Shown here in pieces: positions 3,689-51,543 of a stretch of DNA of 61,759 nt. The stretch's first letter is position 1; each line of letters starts with the position of its first letter. The notes under the pieces were generated by a model, which saw only the letters and a program-made list of their open reading frames with translations, did no database searches and was not told the origin of the DNA. Position numbers and translations under genes: made by a program. This stretch comes from an uncultured Archangium sp. (GTDB taxonomy: Bacteria > Myxococcota > Myxococcia > Myxococcales > Myxococcaceae), in the NCBI GenBank assembly GCA_903905455.1, contig CAIVGN010000148.1:1-61759 (forward strand), given 5' to 3'.

Positions 3689-6600
3689 TCACGGGATGCA
3701 GGCAGCCACGTAGGTCACGGTCAGCGTCTTGCCGGGCTCAGGCACGTAGAGCGGCTCGAAGTTGATCGAGTTGTTGGTCGCGTCGTAGTCCCAGATGCGC
3801 GAGGCCAGGTTCGGGTCGGGGTCGACGGAGGGGATCGGCATGCCGTCGATGGCCACCTGGATGCCCATCGCCGCCGCCAGGTCGGGGCGCGAGGTCAGGA
3901 AGAAGTTGGTGCGGTACCCGAAGGCGTTCTTGCCGATGCGCTCGAGCGCGACGGCCCAGTTCGGGGTGCAGATCTCTTCCTTCACGCCGTTGGTCTGCGA
4001 GACCATGAAGTCGTGACGGCCGTCGTTCGGGTCGTCGTAAGCGCAGCCCGAAGGCGACGTGGGGAGGAACGGACCGACCACGTTGTAGGTGAACTGGCTG
4101 GAGCGCTGGGCGCCTTTGATGTTGAGCAACTGGTTCAGATAGAAGACCGGGGCCTGGGGCGCCTGGTCGCGCGCGTCGGTGACGCACACCACCGCGAGCA
4201 CCGCCTCGTTGCGCAGGAAGCCCGCGTTCTTGGTCGGATCGGTGATGAACGGCGCGGTCAGCGCGCGGGTCGCCGGCTCCATGCACGACTCGGAGAAGCC
4301 GTCGGTGCCGACGTTCACCAGGGTCGAGAACTCGGTGTTCAGGTTGGGCGTCGTGGGGCGGAGGATCTTGTTGCCCGCAGGCGTCACCTTGAGCTCGCCG
4401 CGCGTGGGGTCAGTCAGCTCGGTGTTGGTCACGCCGATCTGGAAGTCGACCTGGTTGCTCGTCGCGTACTGGAGGAACGCCGACATGTTCTGGGCCAGCG
4501 CGGTCTGCTTGTCGCCCATGGAGCACGAGTCGTCGATCACCAGGAGGATGTCGGCCTTGGGCTTGGTGTCCTGGCGGAAGGTGTCGGTGTTGAGGCCGTC
4601 CATGTCGCCCTTGCCCTGCAGCGCCACCACGTAGTCGAGCGGCTGCCCGCCCTGGGTGACGCTGATCACGAAGGCGCCGGTGTCCGGGCCGTAGTTGATG
4701 GGCCGGTACTTGAGCGAGAAGGTGATGGGGGTGGTGCTGCCGGGGAGCACGCGCGTACCGCCGGCGATGCCCGCGACCACGAAGAACTCGGGGCACGGCG
4801 AGGTGCCGGGGCAGTTGGGGCCGCCGGGGCCCTCGCCCGCGGCCGAGCCCATGGAGGCGGTGTTGATCATCACCTCGGTGGAGCACGAGTTGTAGATCTG
4901 GAAGTTCCGGTTGGGCGAGTTGCAGTCCTTCTTCACCGTGCCGAAGTCGAGGGTGCTGGGCGAGATGGTGAGGCAGCTGTTGGCGATGGTCGCCGAGAGC
5001 GCGACCTCACGCAGCGGCGAGACCGGGTCCGCGGCGTTGAAGGAGACCTTGCCGACGACCTGCGCGGGCTGCGGCGGGAGCTGGCCCTGGGGCCAGGCAC
5101 GCACCATCACCTGGCGGGTCTCGCCGGGCTGGAGCTCGAGCTCGTTCTGCGGGTGGTTGGGGCCGGTGAAGTCCGCGGGCAGCGAGAAGACCGCCGGCAT
5201 GCCCACCGGCGTGCCCGTCTCGGGCTGGAGCTGGAGGTTCGAGAGGAGGCAGATGTCGTTGGCGCCGGTGAGGCGGTTGCGGATGGAGAACCCGAGGTCC
5301 TTGATCGACGGCGGCGAGACGATGCCGAACTGCAGCGCGATGGGGGTGATCTCCACGTCGCACGGGGGCAGCACCACCGAGTTCGCGGTCACGTTGATGG
5401 TGGTGACGGCCTCGTCGGGGTCGTTGGAGAAGATCTTCACCTGGAACTCGCGGGTGCCCAGGCCGTTGGGCGTCACGCGCACCGGGAGGTCGAGGATGCT
5501 GGTCGCCCCACCCGCCTCGAGCCCCTGGGAGGGGTTGTAGCTGCCGGCGCCGGTGGCGGGCAGGTCGTTGGTGCAGGTGTTGGTGGCGGTGTCGAACACG
5601 CCGACGCAGATCTCGCTCAGGTCGGAGCCGGTCATCGCGGTGACTTCCCAGTACGGCTTGATGAAGCCGCCGGCGCCGTCGGAGACGCCGAGCTTCAGGT
5701 TCGCGCGGGGGTCGGCGGGCGTGGGCCGCGTGCCGACGTTCTGCACCACGATCTTGCGGTTGGCGAACGAGGCGGGCGAGGCGTTGGCGAACCAGGCCAC
5801 GCGACCGAAGTTGAGGGTCGGCGAGGGGCGCGCGTCGATGTCAGGGCCGCCACCGACGCCGCGGAGGTTGACGCTGATGGACGCCTGGCTGACGAGGGCA
5901 GTGGTCGCAACGAGCTGGCCCGAGCGGGGACCGAGCACCAGGGGCTTGAAGGTGAGCTTGGCCTTCACCGTGCCGGGGACGATCATGTTCGACGCGTCAC
6001 GCACGCCCTTGGGCACGGTGAGCTTGGTGAGGTCGCCCATGTTGGCCTCGATCACCTTGAAGACGACGCTGGGGTTGGCGCCCTCGCGGGTGGCCAGCGC
6101 GTTGAGGGTGATGTCCTGGAGCGAGAGGTTGCTGAAGGTGATCTCGCCGTTGACCACGGTGCCGGGGGGCGCGTAGCCGAAGTCGAGGGTCGCAGGCGTC
6201 CACTTGAGCACCGCGTCGACGCCGGTGCCGATGAGGCGCACGGGCTTCTCGGGGCAGCCGTCGGCGCGGCGCATGCGCACCGTGGCGATGTACTCGCGCT
6301 GCTCGGTCGGCTTGAAGGTGAAGGTGGCCGTCTTGGTGCGCATCGCGCCGATCAGGAACTCACCGCGGGGCGAGTCCGGCGAGATGATGAAGATGCCGTC
6401 GCCCTGCTGCGACTCGACCGCGCCGAGGTAGCCGTGGGTCTCGATGGGGCGCGGGTTGACGTAGTCGAAGGTCTGCACGAACGAGTCGCCGCGAGCGACC
6501 GCGCCGAAGTCGATGCTCGTGGGGAGGTCACACTCGCCGGACACCGCGACGCCCTTGAGGGTGATTTGGGCGTTCTCCTTGCCGATCTCGGTGTCACCCG

Positions 6601-7247: not shown

Positions 7248-9050
7248 ATGACGCAGGCGCGCACGGAGTACGAGTCACGGGTGACGCAGTACCGGAACGA
7301 GCTCGTTCATCTCGATCGCCAGGGCGACCGGTTGGCGAACCTGAGAACGGTGACCTTCCTGGGGTTCATCGGCCTGGGCCTGGCGGTGGGCATGACGTGG
7401 ATCGCGGCGCCCTGGCTGGTGGCGGCCGTGGCCTCGCTGGCAGGGTACATCGCGCTGGCCATCGTCCACGCGGGGGTGATCCGCCGCGAGGAGTTCGCGA
7501 AGGTGCGCCTGTCCCTCAACGAGCGCGGGGTGCTGCGGCTCGACGGCAAGTGGCACGACTTCCCGTCGACCGGCGCGGGCCTGGTGCCCGACGGACACCT
7601 GTACGCCGGCGACCTCGACATCACCGGCAAGGGCAGCCTCTTCCAGCGCCTCGACGACACGGGGACGTCGGCTGGTGAGCAGCGACTCCTGGGCTGGCTG
7701 CTGCGGCCGGCCGACAGCGCGGCGCAGATCACCGCCCGCCAGGACGCGGTGAAGGAGCTCGCGCCGCTGCTCGACTTCCGCCAGTCGCTGGTCGCCGAGG
7801 CCCGGCTCGCGGGTAAGAAAGACAAGGCGGACCCCTCACGGTTCATGACCTGGGCCGAAGCACCGTCGACGCTGACCCCGATTCGTTGGGCCTGGCCCAT
7901 CGCCCACGTGTTGCCCGCCTTCACGCTCGGCGCGGGGTTTCTCTCGGCCAACGGGGTGATCAGCGCCCTGCCCTTCTGGATCGGGCTGATCATCCAGATC
8001 GCGATCGTCGTCATCACCCGCAAGCCCATCGCCGCCATGTGGGAAGCGCTGTCCATGGGCGAGCGGGGATTCGTACGCTTCGAGGAAACGTTCCGCGCCA
8101 TCGACGCGCAGAAGTTCCAGGGCACGTGGCTCGCGGCGCTGCAGCGGGGGCTGATGAACGGCCCGCCGGTGTCGGTGCGGCTGCACCAGTTCGCGCGGCT
8201 CATGGGCTTCGCGGAGCTCAAGCACTCGGGCCAGATGCACCCGCTGATCAACGCCCTGACGCTGTGGGACCTGCTGGTGCTCTTCCGCATCGATCGCTGG
8301 CGCGAGGCCCATGGAAAGGGCGTGCGCAACTGGTTCGAGTCGCTGGCCGAGCTCGAGGCCCTCTCCTCTTTCGCCGCCTGGCACTTCGAGCGGCCCGAAG
8401 ACGCCTTCCCCGTGATCGACGACGGGCCGGTGCACCTCGAGGCCGTCGCGCTGGGTCACCCGCTGCTGGAGAAGCCGGTGCGCAACGACGTGACCTTCAA
8501 GGGGCCGGGATCGGCCCTCATCATCACCGGCTCGAACATGAGCGGCAAGACGACCCTGATGCGCGCCACCGGGCTCAACACGGTGATGGCGCTGGCGGGG
8601 TTGCCGGTGTGCGCCCAGGCGATGAAGGTCTCGCGGGTGCAGGTGCTCACCAGCATGCGCGTGAAGGACTCGCTGGAGCGAGGGGTCTCGTACTTCTACG
8701 CCGAGGTGCAGCGCATCAAGACGGTGCTCGACACCGCGAAGACGCACCGCGATCGCTGCCTCTTCTTCCTCGACGAGCTGTTCATGGGCACCAACGCCAG
8801 GGAACGGCAGATCGCCAGCAAGCAGCTGCTCTTGATGTTGCTCGACCTGGGCGCGGCGGGCGCGGTGACCACCCACGACCTGAGCATCTGCGAGCTTTCG
8901 GCCGAGCGCCCCGAGACGATCCGCAACGTGCACTTCCGCGACGAGATCAAGGACGGCGACATGAGCTTCGACTACCGGCTGCGCGAGGGCGTGGTGCAGA
9001 CCACCAACGCGCTCGAGGTGCTGCGGCGCGCCGGCGTGGAGATCGGCTGA
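7248..9050 (+). CDS. Membrane-anchored MutS-family ATPase
   Basis: The 600-residue product starts at ATG 7248; an in-frame TTG at 7227 would add 7 residues. Two predicted membrane helices lie at about 35-80 and another pair at about 205-255. A MutS core and ATPase domain follow. Walker A is GSNMSGKTTLM near 428, Walker B is LFFLDELFMGT near 505, and the TTHDLSICEL segment after it matches the MutS H-loop region. The N-terminal mismatch-recognition domain of classical MutS (Phe-X-Glu motif) is absent, so a role in ordinary mismatch repair is doubtful. Related membrane-bound MutS-like ATPases occur in other bacteria with no settled function. The gene ends 1 bp from the convergent CBS-domain transporter gene. 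Confidence 0.88.
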   Translation: MTQARTEYESRVTQYRNELVHLDRQGDRLANLRTVTFLGFIGLGLAVGMTWIAAPWLVAAVASLAGYIALAIVHAGVIRREEFAKVRLSLNERGVLRLDGKWHDFPSTGAGLVPDGHLYAGDLDITGKGSLFQRLDDTGTSAGEQRLLGWLLRPADSAAQITARQDAVKELAPLLDFRQSLVAEARLAGKKDKADPSRFMTWAEAPSTLTPIRWAWPIAHVLPAFTLGAGFLSANGVISALPFWIGLIIQIAIVVITRKPIAAMWEALSMGERGFVRFEETFRAIDAQKFQGTWLAALQRGLMNGPPVSVRLHQFARLMGFAELKHSGQMHPLINALTLWDLLVLFRIDRWREAHGKGVRNWFESLAELEALSSFAAWHFERPEDAFPVIDDGPVHLEAVALGHPLLEKPVRNDVTFKGPGSALIITGSNMSGKTTLMRATGLNTVMALAGLPVCAQAMKVSRVQVLTSMRVKDSLERGVSYFYAEVQRIKTVLDTAKTHRDRCLFFLDELFMGTNARERQIASKQLLLMLLDLGAAGAVTTHDLSICELSAERPETIRNVHFRDEIKDGDMSFDYRLREGVVQTTNALEVLRRAGVEIG

Positions 9051-45144: not shown

Positions 45145-45597
45145 TCAGCCGCGGGCGACGAGCGAGCGGAGCGCGTCCTTGTTGGCCATGACCTTCATGC
45201 CGAACTGGGTGCAGATGGCCATCATCAGCTTCATGCAGGCCTGGGGCTTGGTGGCCACGAGCTTCTGGAAGTCGGCCTGGCGGATCTCGAAGGCGGTGAC
45301 GGGGGCGGTGGCGCTCGCCGAGCACATGCGCTGCCCGGGGTTGATGAGCGAGAGTTCGCCCAGCCAGTCGCCGGGGCCCAGTTCGCCCAGGGGGAGATCG
45401 CCGCGTTCACCCTTGGTGGAGAGCGCCACGTGCCCTTCGCCGACGATGATCATCGAGTCGGACATCATGCTCTCGGCGAACAGCAGGGCCCCCGCGGGGT
45501 AGCTGCGCGACGTACAGATGCCCGCGAGGATCTGGATCCCCGTGTCGGTGAAGCCTGAAAGGAGCCCGCAAGCGCGGAGCGCTTCCGCTGCCGTCAT
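45145..45597 (-). CDS. Cyclic-nucleotide-binding (cNMP) domain protein
   Basis: The 150-residue protein is a single cNMP-binding beta-roll domain. A hydrophobic N-terminal helix leads to SYPAGALLFAESMMSDSMIIV. The phosphate-binding cassette reads GDWLGELSLINPGQRMCSAS, and helices follow. The GEL...R core is kept, so ligand binding is possible. No DNA-binding HTH follows, so unlike Crp/Fnr it must signal by protein contact. It lies between the exported unknown (61 bp downstream) and the DUF4145-like gene (55 bp upstream). Confidence 0.87.
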   Translation of the reverse strand: MTAAEALRACGLLSGFTDTGIQILAGICTSRSYPAGALLFAESMMSDSMIIVGEGHVALSTKGERGDLPLGELGPGDWLGELSLINPGQRMCSASATAPVTAFEIRQADFQKLVATKPQACMKLMMAICTQFGMKVMANKDALRSLVARG

Positions 45598-45652: not shown

Positions 45653-46837
45653 TCATGGGCACTTGAACTGGAGCTGCTCGAGCTTCTCGCGCGCCTGGGC
45701 CGACCCCAGCGCCGTCGCCTTGCACAGGTCGAGCATCGCGGCGTCCTGGGCGTGGTCGAGGGCCTTCAGCGAGAAGCGCAGCAGGTAGCCCGGCGCGTAG
45801 TCAGGCGCGGCAGCGACCAGGGCGTCGATCTCCTTCCCGGCGGCGTCCTTGTGGTCGGTCTGGAGCAGCACGCCGGCGAGCCGGGCCCGGTTGTCCAGCC
45901 AGGTGGGGGCCTCGCGACGCGCCACCTCGAGGTGCTGCTGGGCGTCGGGCAGCCGGCCCTCGGCGATGGCCACCAGGCCCGCGAGGTGCTCGGCGGCGGC
46001 GAACCCCGGGCACTTCAGGGCGGCGTCGAGGGCGGGCGACTTGCGCTTCAAGTCCTCGAAGGTGACGAAGGCGAGGAGAAACGCGGCCTCGGGCGAGGGG
46101 TTCTCGATGAGGCCCAGGGCCTGGGCATCGGTCGCGTTCTTCGCCAGCTGGGTGGCCTCGTCGGCGCGGCGGCAGGCGGCCGGGGGGAGCGGGTGCTTGC
46201 GCGTGGCGTAGACCGCATCGAGGGCGGAGAACGAGGGCTCGACCTTCGCGACCTCCACGGGCTTCGGGGTCTCGACGGCGGGCGCGCGGAAGACGAGGAG
46301 CGCGATGAGGCCCGCGATCCCCAGCACGCCCGCGCCGATGAAGAGCGGCAGGCGCGAAGGGGGCGTGACGGCCGCTGCGGGGACGCGGACCGGCGCCACC
46401 GCGACGAGGTTCTTCTTCTCGGCGTACCAGCCGAGGATGGCCACCAGCGAGTTGAGGCTGGCGACCACCTCGTCCTGGCCGACCTTCACGCCCGAGTCTT
46501 CGAGGCTCCCGGCGTGATCGTGGGCCGAGAGGTTGCCCCAGGCCTGCACGGTGCCCATGTGCGCCAGCACGTTGGTGGGGATGATGCCGAGGTTGGCCTG
46601 CTGCCGGAACTTGGTGACCAGCTCGTCGAGCATGGCCTTGCCGGGGGTCTGCTTCAGATCGTCGGTGATGATCGAGCGCAGGAGCGCCTCGAGCACCAGC
46701 CGGGCGTTCTGCATCACGCCCTTGTAGTCGTGCGCCCGTCCCCGGGTGACCATGGTGTGGAGATCGGCCTCGGCGCGCCCGAAGCGCGGGGCCAGCTCAG
46801 TCAGCTTCTGCAGCAACGGTTCGATGTCGACGGCCAT
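45653..46837 (-). CDS. DUF4145-like membrane protein with C-terminal helical-repeat region
   Basis: The protein has 394 residues. The N-terminal 145 residues are helical and contain YKGVMQNARLVLEALLRSII and NLGIIPTNVLAHMGTVQAWGN. This is the pattern of DUF4145/abortive-infection-type domains. One membrane helix lies at about 166-187 (LPLFIGAGVLGIAGLIALLVF). The rest is an external TPR-like helical region with 'HLEVARREAPTWLDNRARLA'. It begins 3 bp after the upstream CsgG-like gene. Confidence 0.72.
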   Translation of the reverse strand: MAVDIEPLLQKLTELAPRFGRAEADLHTMVTRGRAHDYKGVMQNARLVLEALLRSIITDDLKQTPGKAMLDELVTKFRQQANLGIIPTNVLAHMGTVQAWGNLSAHDHAGSLEDSGVKVGQDEVVASLNSLVAILGWYAEKKNLVAVAPVRVPAAAVTPPSRLPLFIGAGVLGIAGLIALLVFRAPAVETPKPVEVAKVEPSFSALDAVYATRKHPLPPAACRRADEATQLAKNATDAQALGLIENPSPEAAFLLAFVTFEDLKRKSPALDAALKCPGFAAAEHLAGLVAIAEGRLPDAQQHLEVARREAPTWLDNRARLAGVLLQTDHKDAAGKEIDALVAAAPDYAPGYLLRFSLKALDHAQDAAMLDLCKATALGSAQAREKLEQLQFKCP

Positions 46838-46840
46838 GGC

Positions 46841-47518
46841 TCACTTCGTCAACGAGAGGAGATCGAGCTGCGCCAGCTTGAAGTCGGGCTGCTCCTTGAG
46901 GACCTCGCCCAGCAGCCTGGTGGCCGTCACCGGGTCCTTCTTGTCCCTGGCGTCGAGGGCCTTCGAGTAGGCGACGGCGGTCTTCAGGGGCAGCGGGTGG
47001 GTGCGCTTGGCGGGCGGCGCGGGGGCGACGGCGAGGCTGCCCAGCTTCACGAAGAGCGCGCCGAGCTTCTCGACCAACTGCTCCTCGGCGACGAAGACGT
47101 CCTTCGGGTCGAGCATCACGCGGGCGCCGCCGACGGTCTTCGAGGTCTCGACCTTCACCACGTGCGCGTCGAGCGCGAACCGGCCCCCTGCCCCGACCAG
47201 CAGGCCCATCACCAGGTAGTCGACGCCGAGCAGCTTGCCCACCTGCGCGAAGGACCCCTTGTGGGCCGCGCGCGACTCGCCGAGCTTGAGTTCAGCGAGC
47301 ACGGCCTCGAGGCGCTCGCGCTCGAGCACGTCGAGCTGCTCGTTGCTCGAGAGATCGGTGGTCATCAACGCGGCGAGGCCCTTGCTGAAGGCCTGGAGTT
47401 CGACGTCGGTGGTGCCGGTCTCGAAGTAGAGGACCGCGATGCGCGGGCGCGTGCCGGCATCAGCCGCCTGGGCCTGGCCCGACAAGGCGACGATCAGCAG
47501 CGCGAAGAGTCTCACCAT
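46841..47518 (-). CDS. CsgG/FlgO-like exported protein
   Basis: The 225-residue product starts at ATG 47518 with a signal peptide MVRLFALLIVALSGQAQA-AD. The core is the CsgG/TolB-N-type alpha/beta fold: PRIAVLYFETGTTDVELQAFSKGLAALMTTDL, LDVLERERLEAVLAELKLGES and LGVDYLVMGLLVGAGGRFALDAHVVKVETSK. It has no Cys lipobox, so it is periplasmic rather than an outer-membrane lipoprotein like CsgG. It is a shortened paralogue of the adjacent 721-residue protein. The gap to that gene is 35 bp. Confidence 0.82.
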   Translation of the reverse strand: MVRLFALLIVALSGQAQAADAGTRPRIAVLYFETGTTDVELQAFSKGLAALMTTDLSSNEQLDVLERERLEAVLAELKLGESRAAHKGSFAQVGKLLGVDYLVMGLLVGAGGRFALDAHVVKVETSKTVGGARVMLDPKDVFVAEEQLVEKLGALFVKLGSLAVAPAPPAKRTHPLPLKTAVAYSKALDARDKKDPVTATRLLGEVLKEQPDFKLAQLDLLSLTK

Positions 47519-47553
47519 GGCCCCGGGGTTGTAGCAGCTCTGCTCCGGCCCCC

Positions 47554-49719
47554 TCACTGCCGCCGCACGCGGAACTCGCCCCGGGTGATCTCCACGTCGA
47601 CCTTCGACTTGTCGGCCTGCTCGGCCTTCGGGAAGAAGGCCTCGAAGGTACCCTCGTCGAAGCCCGGGGCGTCCCGCGGGGCCTGCTTGCTGAAGGTCAC
47701 GTTGCAGGTGCCCTCGAGGGAGGTGCCCCAGTACCGCCGCCAGCGCGCCTGGGTGCACTTGAGCTTGCCGTCCGGTTGGCGCTCGAAGCGCAGATCGAAG
47801 GACTCCTCCTGCGCGCCCTCGAACATCGGCGCCCCCGCGCTCGCCATCAGGGTGAGCACCGTGTCGTCGGTGGAGAGCACCGAGACACAGTGCCGTTCCA
47901 TGGCCAGCTCGCGGGTGCCCTTGTGCAGCCAGCCCTTGAGGTAGGTCAGGTCCTTCTTGAGTTCGCCCAGCTCGCACCACGGCATGTTCCTGGCGTACGC
48001 GAGCATCTCGGAGACCGAGCCGCCCAGCTCCAGGTAGCGCCGGTAGTACGTGCGGTAGCGGTCGCAGTCTTCCGCGTCCGCAGCGGCGTGCGCGATGCGC
48101 CCGTAGAAGATCGTGTACCCCGAGCGGTTGTGGTTGTTCGGCGGGCACGCCTTCTCGAGCTCCGAGGTGAGCTCCTCGAACGCCTTGAGCCCGCTCTGCC
48201 GCATCTTCCGCTCCAGCATCGACGACGACATGTTGATCTTCATGCCGTCGCAGGTCTTGAGGGCCTCGTCCCACACCTGGAAGTCGTTCAGCTCGTGCAG
48301 GTACGCGCCCTCGAGGAGCTTCTTGATGCGCTCTTCCGCGCGGTGCGAACGCGAATCGGAAGGGAAGGCATCGAGCAGCGCCTGGTCGGCGGTGATGGTG
48401 CCGTCGACGTCGCCCCGCCACAGCGCGAGGTCGGCCTTGAAGTCCATCAGCGCGAAGGCCTCGTTCTGTGCGAACCGTTCGCCCTTCTGGTGCCGCGCCA
48501 GCGCCCGGGCGATCTCCAGGTCGAGCTGGGCGGTGAGCGCCTTGCCTTCCTTCGGATCGGCCGAGGCGAACACCGGCATCACGTGGAAGCTCTCGCCATC
48601 GGTGACGCGCCCGCGGAAGGCGAACTCGAAGAGCTCGAGGTCGGGATCGAGACCGAAGCCGTGGTCACCAATCTTCGACTCGTCCACCAGCTTGGTCTCG
48701 GCCTCGGAGACGCGGAAGTTGGGCGAGAACGGGTACGAGACGCCGCTGTGGACCTCGGTGAACTTCGCGACGGCGCGATCCCGCTCCGAGCTGAAGCGCC
48801 GCTGGTTCTCGACCCAGTCCCGCATCGCCAGCAGCGCCTGCCCTTCCTTGCCCTTGCGGGCGACCCGGTCGCTGCCGCTGCGCGAGACGAAGTGCTGCTT
48901 GAGCACGCGCGCCAGGTAGCGGGCCTTGAGCAGCCGCATGCTCAGGAAGTGCTCGGTCGCGTCCTTGTCGAGGCCGTCGAACTGCGCCTCGTCCTTGAGC
49001 GCCTGGTCGATCACCGCGCCCAGCTCGACGATGGCGCCGGTGACCAGGTCGCGCTTGCGCTTCTGGTACTCCTCGAAGGCCTTCAAGAACTCCTGCTGGC
49101 GCTCCCGGCCGAGGAGGAACGCAGGCGCCTTCGAGACCACCGCGCGCATCGCCGCCTGGGCCTCTTCGACCTTGCCCTGGTCAGCCAGGTCGAGGGCCTT
49201 GCCGTAGGCGATCACCGTCGCGAGATCAGGCACCCTCGCCTTTCGCCGCGCCTGGGCGTTGGCGGAGAGCTTGGCGTCGATCTGCGTCACCAACTGGTTG
49301 GCGAGGCGTTGCTCGAGATCGAAGATCTTGTCGCGCTCGTCTTCTTCCTTGATGGCGATCACCACCGCGCCGTCGGCCGAGCGGACCAGCCGCGCCTGCA
49401 CGATCAACCGCGACCCGCTCTTCAGCAGCGAGCCGTAGATCAGGTAGGTGGCGTTGAGCACCTTGCCCAGCTTCGCGGCGGTCGCCTTGTCGACGTAGCG
49501 GGTCTGCTGGAAGTTGAGCTCCTTGAGCACGTCCTCCAGCCGGGTGCGCTCGACGACCTGCACGCCTTCCCACGCCACGAGGTCGGTGGTGAGCAGGTCC
49601 GCGAGGCCCTTGCGCATGGACTCCAGCTCGGGGTCCTTCGAGTCGTTGTCGAAGTAGAGCACCGAGACGACCGGCGCATCGGCCGCCGCCAGCAACGCCA
49701 CCAGCGAGAGGGCCAGCAT
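47554..49719 (-). CDS. Large CsgG/FlgO-like exported protein
   Basis: The protein has 721 residues. The N-terminal signal (LALSLVALLAAADA) leads to a CsgG-like domain (about 18-165): VVSVLYFDNDSKDPELESMRKGLADLLTTDL, VERTRLEDVLKELNF and LNATYLIYGSLLKSGSRLIVQARLVR. The next 550 residues are a helical, charged region I do not recognise, with several Cys in the last quarter. It starts 4 bp after the FPD-repeat gene stops and precedes a smaller paralogue, so paired CsgG-like proteins share the transcript. CsgG-family proteins form secretion or polymer pores. Confidence 0.82.
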   Translation of the reverse strand: MLALSLVALLAAADAPVVSVLYFDNDSKDPELESMRKGLADLLTTDLVAWEGVQVVERTRLEDVLKELNFQQTRYVDKATAAKLGKVLNATYLIYGSLLKSGSRLIVQARLVRSADGAVVIAIKEEDERDKIFDLEQRLANQLVTQIDAKLSANAQARRKARVPDLATVIAYGKALDLADQGKVEEAQAAMRAVVSKAPAFLLGRERQQEFLKAFEEYQKRKRDLVTGAIVELGAVIDQALKDEAQFDGLDKDATEHFLSMRLLKARYLARVLKQHFVSRSGSDRVARKGKEGQALLAMRDWVENQRRFSSERDRAVAKFTEVHSGVSYPFSPNFRVSEAETKLVDESKIGDHGFGLDPDLELFEFAFRGRVTDGESFHVMPVFASADPKEGKALTAQLDLEIARALARHQKGERFAQNEAFALMDFKADLALWRGDVDGTITADQALLDAFPSDSRSHRAEERIKKLLEGAYLHELNDFQVWDEALKTCDGMKINMSSSMLERKMRQSGLKAFEELTSELEKACPPNNHNRSGYTIFYGRIAHAAADAEDCDRYRTYYRRYLELGGSVSEMLAYARNMPWCELGELKKDLTYLKGWLHKGTRELAMERHCVSVLSTDDTVLTLMASAGAPMFEGAQEESFDLRFERQPDGKLKCTQARWRRYWGTSLEGTCNVTFSKQAPRDAPGFDEGTFEAFFPKAEQADKSKVDVEITRGEFRVRRQ

Positions 49720-49723
49720 CGGC

Positions 49724-50062
49724 TCAGTTCGCGCCGGGGAAGGAGCTCACGTACTGCACCTTCACGTCGGGGAACGAGGTGACGAACTGCACCTTGGTGT
49801 CCGGGAAGCTGGTGACCATCTGCCACTTGCCGCAGGTGTCCGGGAAGGAGCTGACCTTCTGCACCTTGACGTCGGGGAACGAGCTGACGACCTGCACCTT
49901 CACGTCTGGGAAGGACGAGACTTCCTGGATCTTCCCGTAGAGCTTCTTGCCGTTGAAGGTGCAGCTCGACTTGCTGAAGCCACCACCGGCCTGGGCCGAG
50001 AGAGCCACCCCGGCCACGACGGCGAGGATCACGGCGGTTACGGCGGCGAGGACCTGCTTCAT
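49724..50062 (-). CDS. Secreted FPD-repeat protein resembling the 7(1) septoil knot family
   Basis: The 112-residue product starts at ATG 50062, with GGAG about 10 bases upstream. A signal peptide of about 25 residues ends ALSAQA. Residues 33-112 are a compact repeat domain: CTFNGKKLYGKIQ, then six SFP(D)-containing units of 11-13 residues (VSSFPDVKVQ type). Only two cysteines, C34 and C77, are present. From memory this pattern matches the '7(1) septoil knot' domain family, a very deeply knotted beta-structure found in small exported proteins. It precedes a CsgG-like protein by 4 bp, which implies joint expression. Confidence 0.8.
   Translation of the reverse strand: MKQVLAAVTAVILAVVAGVALSAQAGGGFSKSSCTFNGKKLYGKIQEVSSFPDVKVQVVSSFPDVKVQKVSSFPDTCGKWQMVTSFPDTKVQFVTSFPDVKVQYVSSFPGAN
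49727..49924 (-). repeat. FPD repeat region of the knot-like protein
   Basis: Six tandem 33-39 bp units encode XV(S/T)SFP(D)-type repeats at residues of about 47-112. The DNA copies are diverged but recognisable, with GGGAA(G/C)GA on the plus strand in most. One unit carries the extra Cys (TCGKWQ). Confidence 0.85.
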
Positions 50063-50130: not shown

Positions 50131-51510
50131 TCAGGCCACGACGCACGACTCGGCGACGGGGGCCACCTCGGGGATCGCCACGTTGGGCAGCGAGATCACC
50201 CGCCCCTGCACCCCGCCCAACGAGCTCTGGCTCGAGGAGTCGACCTTGATCTCCACCAGCGCGCCGATGGGGGCGTCGCCGTCGAAGTTCACCACCCGGT
50301 TGTGCGAGGTGCGGCCGAAGCGCTTGGCCGCGTTGGTGCGCGAGGTGCCCTCCACGAGGACCTCCACCGTGCCGCCCACGTGCTGCGACATGAGGGCCAC
50401 GCTGACCTTCTTCTGCAGGGCGTTGAGCTTCTCCAGGCGCTTGACCTTCACCTCGTGCGCCACCGGGCCCCACTCCGCTTCCTTCAGGCCGGCGATCGTC
50501 TTGGGGCGCGGCGAGTAGACGAAGGTGTACGTGCCGTCGAAGCCGACGTCGACGCACAGCTGGTAGGTCTTCTCGAAGTCTTCCTCGGTCTCGCCGGGGT
50601 AGCCCACGATGATGTCCGTGGTCACCGCGATGTCCGGCCGCACCGCGCGCAGCTTGGCGAGGCGCTCGAGGTAGTTGGCGATGGTGTAGTCGCGCTTCAT
50701 GCGCACCAGCACCTCGTTCGAGCCGCTCTGCACCGGCAGGTGGAAGTGCGACATGATCTTCGGCTCCACGCGGAAGGCCTCGACCAGCTCGTCCGAGAGA
50801 TCGTGCGGGTGGCTGGTGGTGAAGCGCACGCGCTCGATGCCCGGCACCTGGGCGGTGCGCAGCAGCAGCTGGGCGAACGAGATGCCGCCGAGGTAGCTGT
50901 TCACGTTCTGGCCCACGAGGGTCACCTCGCGCACGCCGACGGTGGTGAGCCGCGCCACCTCCTGCAGCACCTCGGTGAAGGGCCGGCTGACCTCGCGGCC
51001 GCGGGTGTGGGGCACCACGCAGAAGGCGCAGACGTTGTCGCAGCCCTTCATCACGGTGACGAACTCGGTGGTCCGGCCCACGGAGCTCCTGGGGTCCGCC
51101 TGGGGGAAGACGTAGCTCTCGGAGTCCACCCACGCGGTCTCCACCACGCGCACCTTCTCGGTCTCGATGCGCGCGATGATCTCCGGGAGCTTGCCGATGG
51201 CGTCGGGCCCGAAGACGAAGTCCACGTAGGGCACCTTCTCGAGGATCTTGTCCTTTTCCTGCTGGGCCACGCAGCCACCGACGCCGATGAGGGCGCCGCG
51301 CTGGAGCTTCACCTGCCGGTAGCGACCCAGGGCCGAGAGCATCTTGTCCTCGGCCTTCTCGCGGATGGAGCAGGTGTTGAGGATGATCAGGTCGGCGTTG
51401 TCGGCCGTGGGGGTGGCTGAATACGACATCGACGCCAGGGCCTCGCCCATGCGGTTGGTGTCGTTGACGTTCATCTGGCAGCCGAAGGTGTGAATGAAGT
51501 ACCGCTTCAT
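50131..51510 (-). CDS. miaB: tRNA-2-methylthio-N6-dimethylallyladenosine synthase
   Basis: The 459-residue product starts at ATG 51510, with AAGG upstream. MiaB adds the 2-methylthio group to i6A37 of tRNAs. The N-terminal auxiliary-cluster cysteines are in TFGCQMN, LNTCSIRE and GVGGCVAQQ. The radical-SAM motif is CDNVCAFC (CXXXCXXC), followed by VPHTRGREVSRP and LVGQNVNSYLG. A C-terminal TRAM domain ends in EVLVEG and GDAPIGALVEIKV. It is 68 bp upstream of the FPD-repeat gene on the same strand. Whether they share a transcript is unclear. Confidence 0.96.
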   Translation of the reverse strand: MKRYFIHTFGCQMNVNDTNRMGEALASMSYSATPTADNADLIILNTCSIREKAEDKMLSALGRYRQVKLQRGALIGVGGCVAQQEKDKILEKVPYVDFVFGPDAIGKLPEIIARIETEKVRVVETAWVDSESYVFPQADPRSSVGRTTEFVTVMKGCDNVCAFCVVPHTRGREVSRPFTEVLQEVARLTTVGVREVTLVGQNVNSYLGGISFAQLLLRTAQVPGIERVRFTTSHPHDLSDELVEAFRVEPKIMSHFHLPVQSGSNEVLVRMKRDYTIANYLERLAKLRAVRPDIAVTTDIIVGYPGETEEDFEKTYQLCVDVGFDGTYTFVYSPRPKTIAGLKEAEWGPVAHEVKVKRLEKLNALQKKVSVALMSQHVGGTVEVLVEGTSRTNAAKRFGRTSHNRVVNFDGDAPIGALVEIKVDSSSQSSLGGVQGRVISLPNVAIPEVAPVAESCVVA

Positions 51511-51543
51511 GGGGGCGCCTTCTGTTGGCACTGGGCCGCGAAG

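Follow-up and report, generated by a model that had tools for sequence, protein, structure and literature searches.

The window, by which we mean the whole stretch of 61,759 nucleotides analysed here, comes from a soil bacterium with a genome of 8.6 Mb in 251 contigs, whose relatives include Archangium and Myxococcaceae records. On its minus strand an accessory insertion is bounded upstream by miaB (50131..51531, −) and downstream by a gene encoding a cyclic-nucleotide-binding-domain protein (45145..45597, −; Pfam cNMP_binding, 3.4e-17). Its first gene, 68 bp downstream from miaB, is that of a 112-aa, predicted exported protein of a knotted family (49724..50062, −), containing six 11-residue xSFP(D/G) units; it is followed after 4 bp by the gene of a 721-aa putatively exported protein (47554..49719, −) having an N-terminal domain of the CsgG/LpoB/PelC/TolB-N type, a helical, TPR-like central part, and a beta domain at the C-terminus. 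An ORF for a 225-aa, putatively exported paralogue that shares this N-terminal domain (46841..47518, −; Pfam CsgG) follows at 35 bp, and one for a 394-aa membrane protein (45653..46837, −) after a further 3 bp. A re-reading of the ORFs bore out every coordinate and spacing given in an earlier note on this DNA, including the 112-residue ORF with its six repeats. The spacing suggests that the knot gene and the genes downstream are co-transcribed. Scans for promoters and terminators returned no more than in shuffled sequence, and a PADLOC search of the window proteins gave zero defence matches. The genome has only three places with a CsgG domain, of which two are at this locus, so that the adjacency of the knot gene and the CsgG-domain genes is not a matter of background density.

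That the SFP(D) repeats are genuine coding sequence is shown by 34 genome-contig loci in which this reading frame is found again, at 41–89% identity. When the 112-aa product was compared with the PDB sequences by phmmer, a single sequence matched, Ureaplasma UU089.1/Q9PR55 (E=1.3e-13), which protein is represented by the entry 8iwa plus four more; the entry 8jrm is entitled "Solution structure of a 7_1 knotted Q9PR55." An AF2 model built from 32 family members had a pLDDT >90 across most of the residues 41–110, a low-confidence N-terminus, and a pTM of 0.64; and with this model Foldseek returned 8iwa, 8iwb, and 8jrm as the sole matches at E≤0.001, with a probability of 1.00. In VIA-align the model superposed on 8iwa_A with a Z of 7.7 and an rmsd of 2.6 Å over 68 residues, and on 8iwb_F with the same Z and 2.2 Å over 66 residues. 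The kinship to the 7(1) septoil-knot family that had been proposed from the letters alone is thus sustained by both the phmmer match and the fold, and the fold prediction suggested at the same time makes a knot likely. The 7(1) knot of Q9PR55 was predicted in PMC9278004, and its crystallographic confirmation is stated in PMC13352647 and PMC11223836. By homology and model we consider the window protein a member of the Q9PR55 knotted fold family but do not claim the 7(1) topology itself, which type is not assured because a 48%-identical pair within that family has differing predicted knots, 5(1) versus 7(1) (PMC9278004): P73136 of Synechocystis, reported as a probable Q9PR55 homologue of 112 aa and 48% identity, carries the predicted 5(1) knot, so that the topology within the family may vary.

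Searches of Pfam and NCBIfam gave no named family for the knot protein. DUF6150 (PF19647) was considered and set aside, as only one flavobacterial member matched it, and weakly (E=0.081; 13.4 versus 27 bits). The window protein did match phrog_6462 (E=3.4e-31), an uncharacterised phage family that the relatives match as well. Searches of a viral structure library and, by tblastn, of annotated phages with the knot protein gave no match. The description of phrog_6462, a family of unknown function, rests on viral sequences; the copy in the window, in contrast, is chromosomal and lies beside miaB.

Relative to UU089.1, with which it shares 45–52% identity over about 68 residues and a matching fold, the window protein differs in three respects. 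A signal peptide, absent from UU089.1, is predicted at residues 1–25 (MKQVLAAVTAVILAVVAGVALSAQA; 49988..50062, −), as read by eye and with an approximate cleavage site; two conserved cysteines align with an Ala and a Thr of UU089.1; and one SFPG unit is added at the C-terminus. The earlier description of the protein as secreted agrees with this predicted N-terminus, and a hydrophobic export-type N-terminus is found in nearly all the relatives. Cys34 (49961..49963, −) and Cys77 (49832..49834, −) are invariant in the alignment A1; and among the 56 family members with full repeats, 50 have both cysteines, five have neither, and one has a single one. This both-or-neither pattern in 55 of the 56 leads us to infer a Cys34–Cys77 disulfide in the window protein. 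Two further family members were observed in the Myxococcota: a second, diverged gene in the genome G002 of the window's genus (L094:4091-4498), with a lipoprotein-type LSGC N-terminus; and a UU089.1-like cytosolic homologue (L095:7986-8237; E=1.5e-22), far from the Mollicutes, which protein is signal-less, lacks the cysteine pair, and is nearer to UU089.1.

The repeats vary in concert. The residue preceding the Phe is identical between the units of one protein at a frequency of 0.857, versus 0.573 upon shuffling, and none of 1000 shuffles reached as high a value, which count is not a strict probability because the proteins are related. Proteins with Ala before the FP (L015, L020, L012, L049, L077, L080) have that Ala in each of the six units or in almost every one, and a Burkholderia member has IAP in place of the motif in all six. 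As the cause of this uniformity in the GC-rich genes, recent gene conversion is less favoured, since synonymous codons carry no signal of it there: their sharing was 0.636 within genes and 0.621 between them, values close enough to favour selection for identical turns, such as would be demanded by a symmetric knotted ring. In the two lower-GC groups the sharing within genes was higher (0.565 versus 0.475 and 0.477 versus 0.357), which excess mixed codon usage may explain, gene conversion being also possible there. In Sutterella (L022) a full, 108-aa knot gene (4070-4396) has upstream from it a 62-aa copy (2514-2702) with the same signal peptide and only two units, which copy might be either a natural unknotted paralogue or an assembly artefact.

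As to the genes that follow the knot gene, the 721- and the 225-aa ORFs both scored above the Pfam CsgG cut-off of 20.8 bits (38.2 and 49.1 bits, respectively); but only the N-terminal part of the profile was covered, at positions 7–98 and 4–98 of 210. The designation "CsgG/FlgO-like" for the longer protein hence holds in its first half and to that extent, FlgO having remained below its cut-off (18.2 versus 22.6 bits). The shorter one, which shares 33% identity with the N-terminal part of the longer, can be kept as a CsgG-like paralogue with the same restriction. The 721-aa protein also matched LpoB in Pfam above the cut-off; and a search of the PDB sequences with the two proteins gave no match. 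The AF2 model of the 721-aa protein consists of an N-terminal alpha/beta domain with a pLDDT of about 45–79, an extended helical central part, and a beta domain at the C-terminus. For this model the best Foldseek matches—to its N-terminal domain—were LpoB, GNA1162, PelC, and TolB, the nearest folds being without a barrel, and CsgG (4uv3) ranked 44th. In contrast to those four proteins, the domain is here fused to the helical and C-terminal beta parts, and a lipobox is absent. The protein is thus probably devoid of a barrel, which absence is not proven because the confidence in the N-terminal domain is modest. Of the third protein, once called a DUF4145-like membrane protein, the membrane assignment is retained by virtue of a single hydrophobic segment at residues 161–179, whereas the DUF4145 match of its N-terminal part was below the cut-off (19.1 versus 23.1 bits) and its C-terminal part matched TPR above it.

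The same features bear on the reading of the earlier note that a CsgG-type pore would secrete the knotted protein, a proposal that could appeal to the CsgG domain above the cut-off and to the 4-bp spacing. The match nevertheless stops at profile position 98 of 210, leaving the second half of the profile unmatched; the nearest folds are those of LpoB, GNA1162, PelC, and TolB; no lipobox Cys occurs in the N-termini of the two proteins, whereas that of E. coli CsgG contains one; and the identity upon alignment to E. coli CsgG, the curli pore, is 14–21%. No CsgA, B, E, or F was found by Pfam among the neighbouring genes. The eyelet of CsgG, about 12 Å wide, is moreover believed to let chains through in the unfolded state (PMC7304575), so that a folded knot would fit poorly, and at no locus away from the Myxococcaceae does such a CsgG gene adjoin the knot gene. 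We thus consider this pore very improbable, and the best reading of the two CsgG-like proteins, from profiles and models, is that they are soluble periplasmic domains rather than dedicated pores; the placing of the knot locus in an envelope gene cluster, for its part, holds.

Within the Myxococcaceae the position of the knot gene is constant: miaB lies upstream at every locus whose contig reaches it. In most of the loci compared, the gene after the knot follows at a gap of ≤10 bp or overlaps. In the window's genus that next gene is the 721-aa one, after 4–5 bp, and the direct knot–CsgG junction was seen in this genus plus one fragment (L054). In sister genera the order is miaB, the knot gene, a lipoprotein trypsin, a membrane caspase, and a CsgG-like gene. 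The two genes thus interposed match Trypsin_2 (1.9e-22) and Peptidase_C14 (5e-12), the trypsins having lipobox-like N-terminal motifs (LFCAC, LLCAC, LCGC) and the caspase one hydrophobic segment; and the full series, as found in L100, comprises miaB, the knot gene, the trypsin, the caspase, a pair of CsgG-domain genes, a CorA-like gene on the opposite strand, an orthologue of the 225-aa CsgG gene, and DUF4145. The caspase is also akin to those of the EACC1-associated caspase/trypsin conflict systems, matching caspase_w_EACC1 at 1.2e-13; but its 51.1 bits stay below the cut-off of 140, and caspase and trypsin genes are absent from the window.

In the relatives that lack the knot, miaB is present in 16 of 16; and of 14 that were fetched, 12 have no trypsin, caspase, or CsgG genes beside it, one (L135) is on a contig that ends too early to judge, and one (L134) has the module of these genes; in 11 miaB is followed by the cNMP-binding gene without the insertion, one of these with a vanZ-like gene between. 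On a MiaB tree the knot carriers required two changes, versus 10.2 with shuffled labels, and L008 and L096, which bear the trypsin and caspase, were sister to the window's genus. Because these sisters keep the proteases, and because the window's own genome has no trypsin homologue of the sister-genus kind at E≤1e-10, we read the window's junction as derived through the loss of the protease pair, which is the best reading by parsimony though not a proof. The conserved synteny to be looked for according to the earlier note is therefore found in part within the Myxococcaceae, as miaB, knot, and module, and fails outside that family.

The trypsin-like lipoprotein of the sister genera might itself be the partner, with the knot as its inhibitor, activator, or protected substrate, and an orphan in the window's genus. 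The genes adjoin, the lipobox of the trypsin makes a shared compartment likely, and a compact two-cysteine fold would suit such a role. Yet the knot is kept without a protease in the window's genus and in two other Myxococcaceae loci (L010 and L099), which have neither CsgG gene nor proteases; a knot-less relative (L134) conversely has the trypsin–caspase–CsgG module; and no such trypsin adjoins the knot in the other Myxococcota loci tested. We hold this partnership to be unlikely.

Outside the Myxococcaceae, knot relatives were found in other Myxococcota, in Alpha- and Betaproteobacteria, in Bacteroidota and Leptospira, and on viral contigs, and none of those loci has miaB, or a CsgG homologue like those of the window, next to the knot gene. 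In another Myxococcota family its neighbour is CarD; Betaproteobacteria encode transporter components and substrate-binding proteins there, Sutterella has a TraR/DksA zinc-finger gene, and in Flavobacteria the knot gene is near tail-like clusters containing DUF6046. The distribution is patchy, with 28 of 195 Myxococcota genomes and two of 274 genomes in the class of G200. The gene being a loner with changing neighbours outside the Myxococcaceae, its basic function cannot depend on the module found in the window.

Several of these loci merit description in their own right. On a Leptospira weilii plasmid an exported homologue (L063:5956-6270) is encoded in a phage-tail operon, between the tail genes and baseplate J, whose gene it overlaps. 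In Aquimarina a tail-like cluster (L031:465-2744 and 7956-8258) holds the knot gene along with a gene for an AHH-nuclease protein and another for a protein with DUF6046; and three flavobacterial genomes (L034, L031, L033) share a syntenic block of about ten genes downstream of the knot gene, in which five L034 proteins without a Pfam match are baseplate-like by order. Seven IMG/VR contigs contain a knot gene, and two viral contigs encode identical, signal-less, cysteine-free family proteins of 83 aa (L105:8022-8273 and L107:4895-5146).

The principal alternative to a role within the module is that of a passenger: an autonomous, horizontally spread exported protein, cargo of phages or other elements—for example an envelope-modifying or superinfection-exclusion protein—whose location next to CsgG genes implies no functional link. 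The viral contigs, the Leptospira phage-tail operon, the flavobacterial tail-like clusters, the TraR/DksA neighbour in Sutterella, the PHROG family of unknown function, and the patchy distribution all speak for it; against it stands the situation in the Myxococcaceae, where the gene keeps to one locus and, in several genera, is closely spaced with the module that comes after it. We would grant the passenger role a substantial chance, though one short of even.

The reading that we prefer, at a probability of roughly one-half, is that an exported protein of the Q9PR55 fold heads an accessory envelope operon and is a ligand of the module encoded there. The observed gene order and insertion site place the knot gene first between miaB and the cNMP-binding-domain gene in part of the Myxococcaceae; and the exported knot, the exported CsgG-domain proteins, the membrane TPR protein, and the sister-genus lipobox trypsin with its caspase together point to an envelope module, in which the compartment of each part and any interaction are what we infer. 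The ancestral order would have been the knot, the lipoprotein trypsin-like protease, the membrane caspase-like protein, one or more CsgG-domain/TPR proteins, then the 225-aa CsgG-domain protein, and last the DUF4145/TPR protein. Loss of the two proteases in the window's genus would, by parsimony, have brought the knot beside the 721-aa protein. After Sec export the chain would fold into a deep knot, which the Cys34–Cys77 bond would lock, so as to yield a protease-resistant ligand in the periplasm or at the surface. The CsgG-domain/TPR proteins would be soluble in the periplasm and, acting as scaffolds or sensors similar in type to LpoB, PelC, and TolB, would receive this ligand and, in the sister genera, relay to the trypsin/caspase pair. 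That the knot is a protease-resistant partner or ligand of the envelope module is probable in our view, with low confidence; and the functional step taken by itself—the knot serving the module as a stable ligand, either in the periplasm or at the surface—we put forward tentatively, as less than likely. The loci with the knot and neither CsgG gene nor proteases, and that with the module and no knot, count against the module reading.

The 7(1)-knotted protein, whose knot is the most intricate known for any protein, counts as a textbook curiosity of topology, and in the papers that we read we found no function reported for it. The knot family is already known, and the window protein is a new form of it, an exported branch that is probably locked by a disulfide and whose neighbourhood in sister genera contains proteases; the operon link is real within the Myxococcaceae without being general, and the analysis corrects the notion of an attached CsgG pore. 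Whether a disulfide locks the knot, whether export requires threading after translocation, and what the binding partner might be are questions that this locus raises. That such an exported, disulfide-locked knot takes part in a protease/caspase relay of the myxobacterial envelope, whether as its regulatory subunit or as an indestructible signal, is a speculation that we think improbable, but which, if true, would give a 7(1)-type knot its first biological role. The operon context, the cysteine pair of the exported form, and the concerted repeats make the question open to experiment, and the exported branch with its sister-genus protease neighbourhood gives a first point of entry to the function of such knots.
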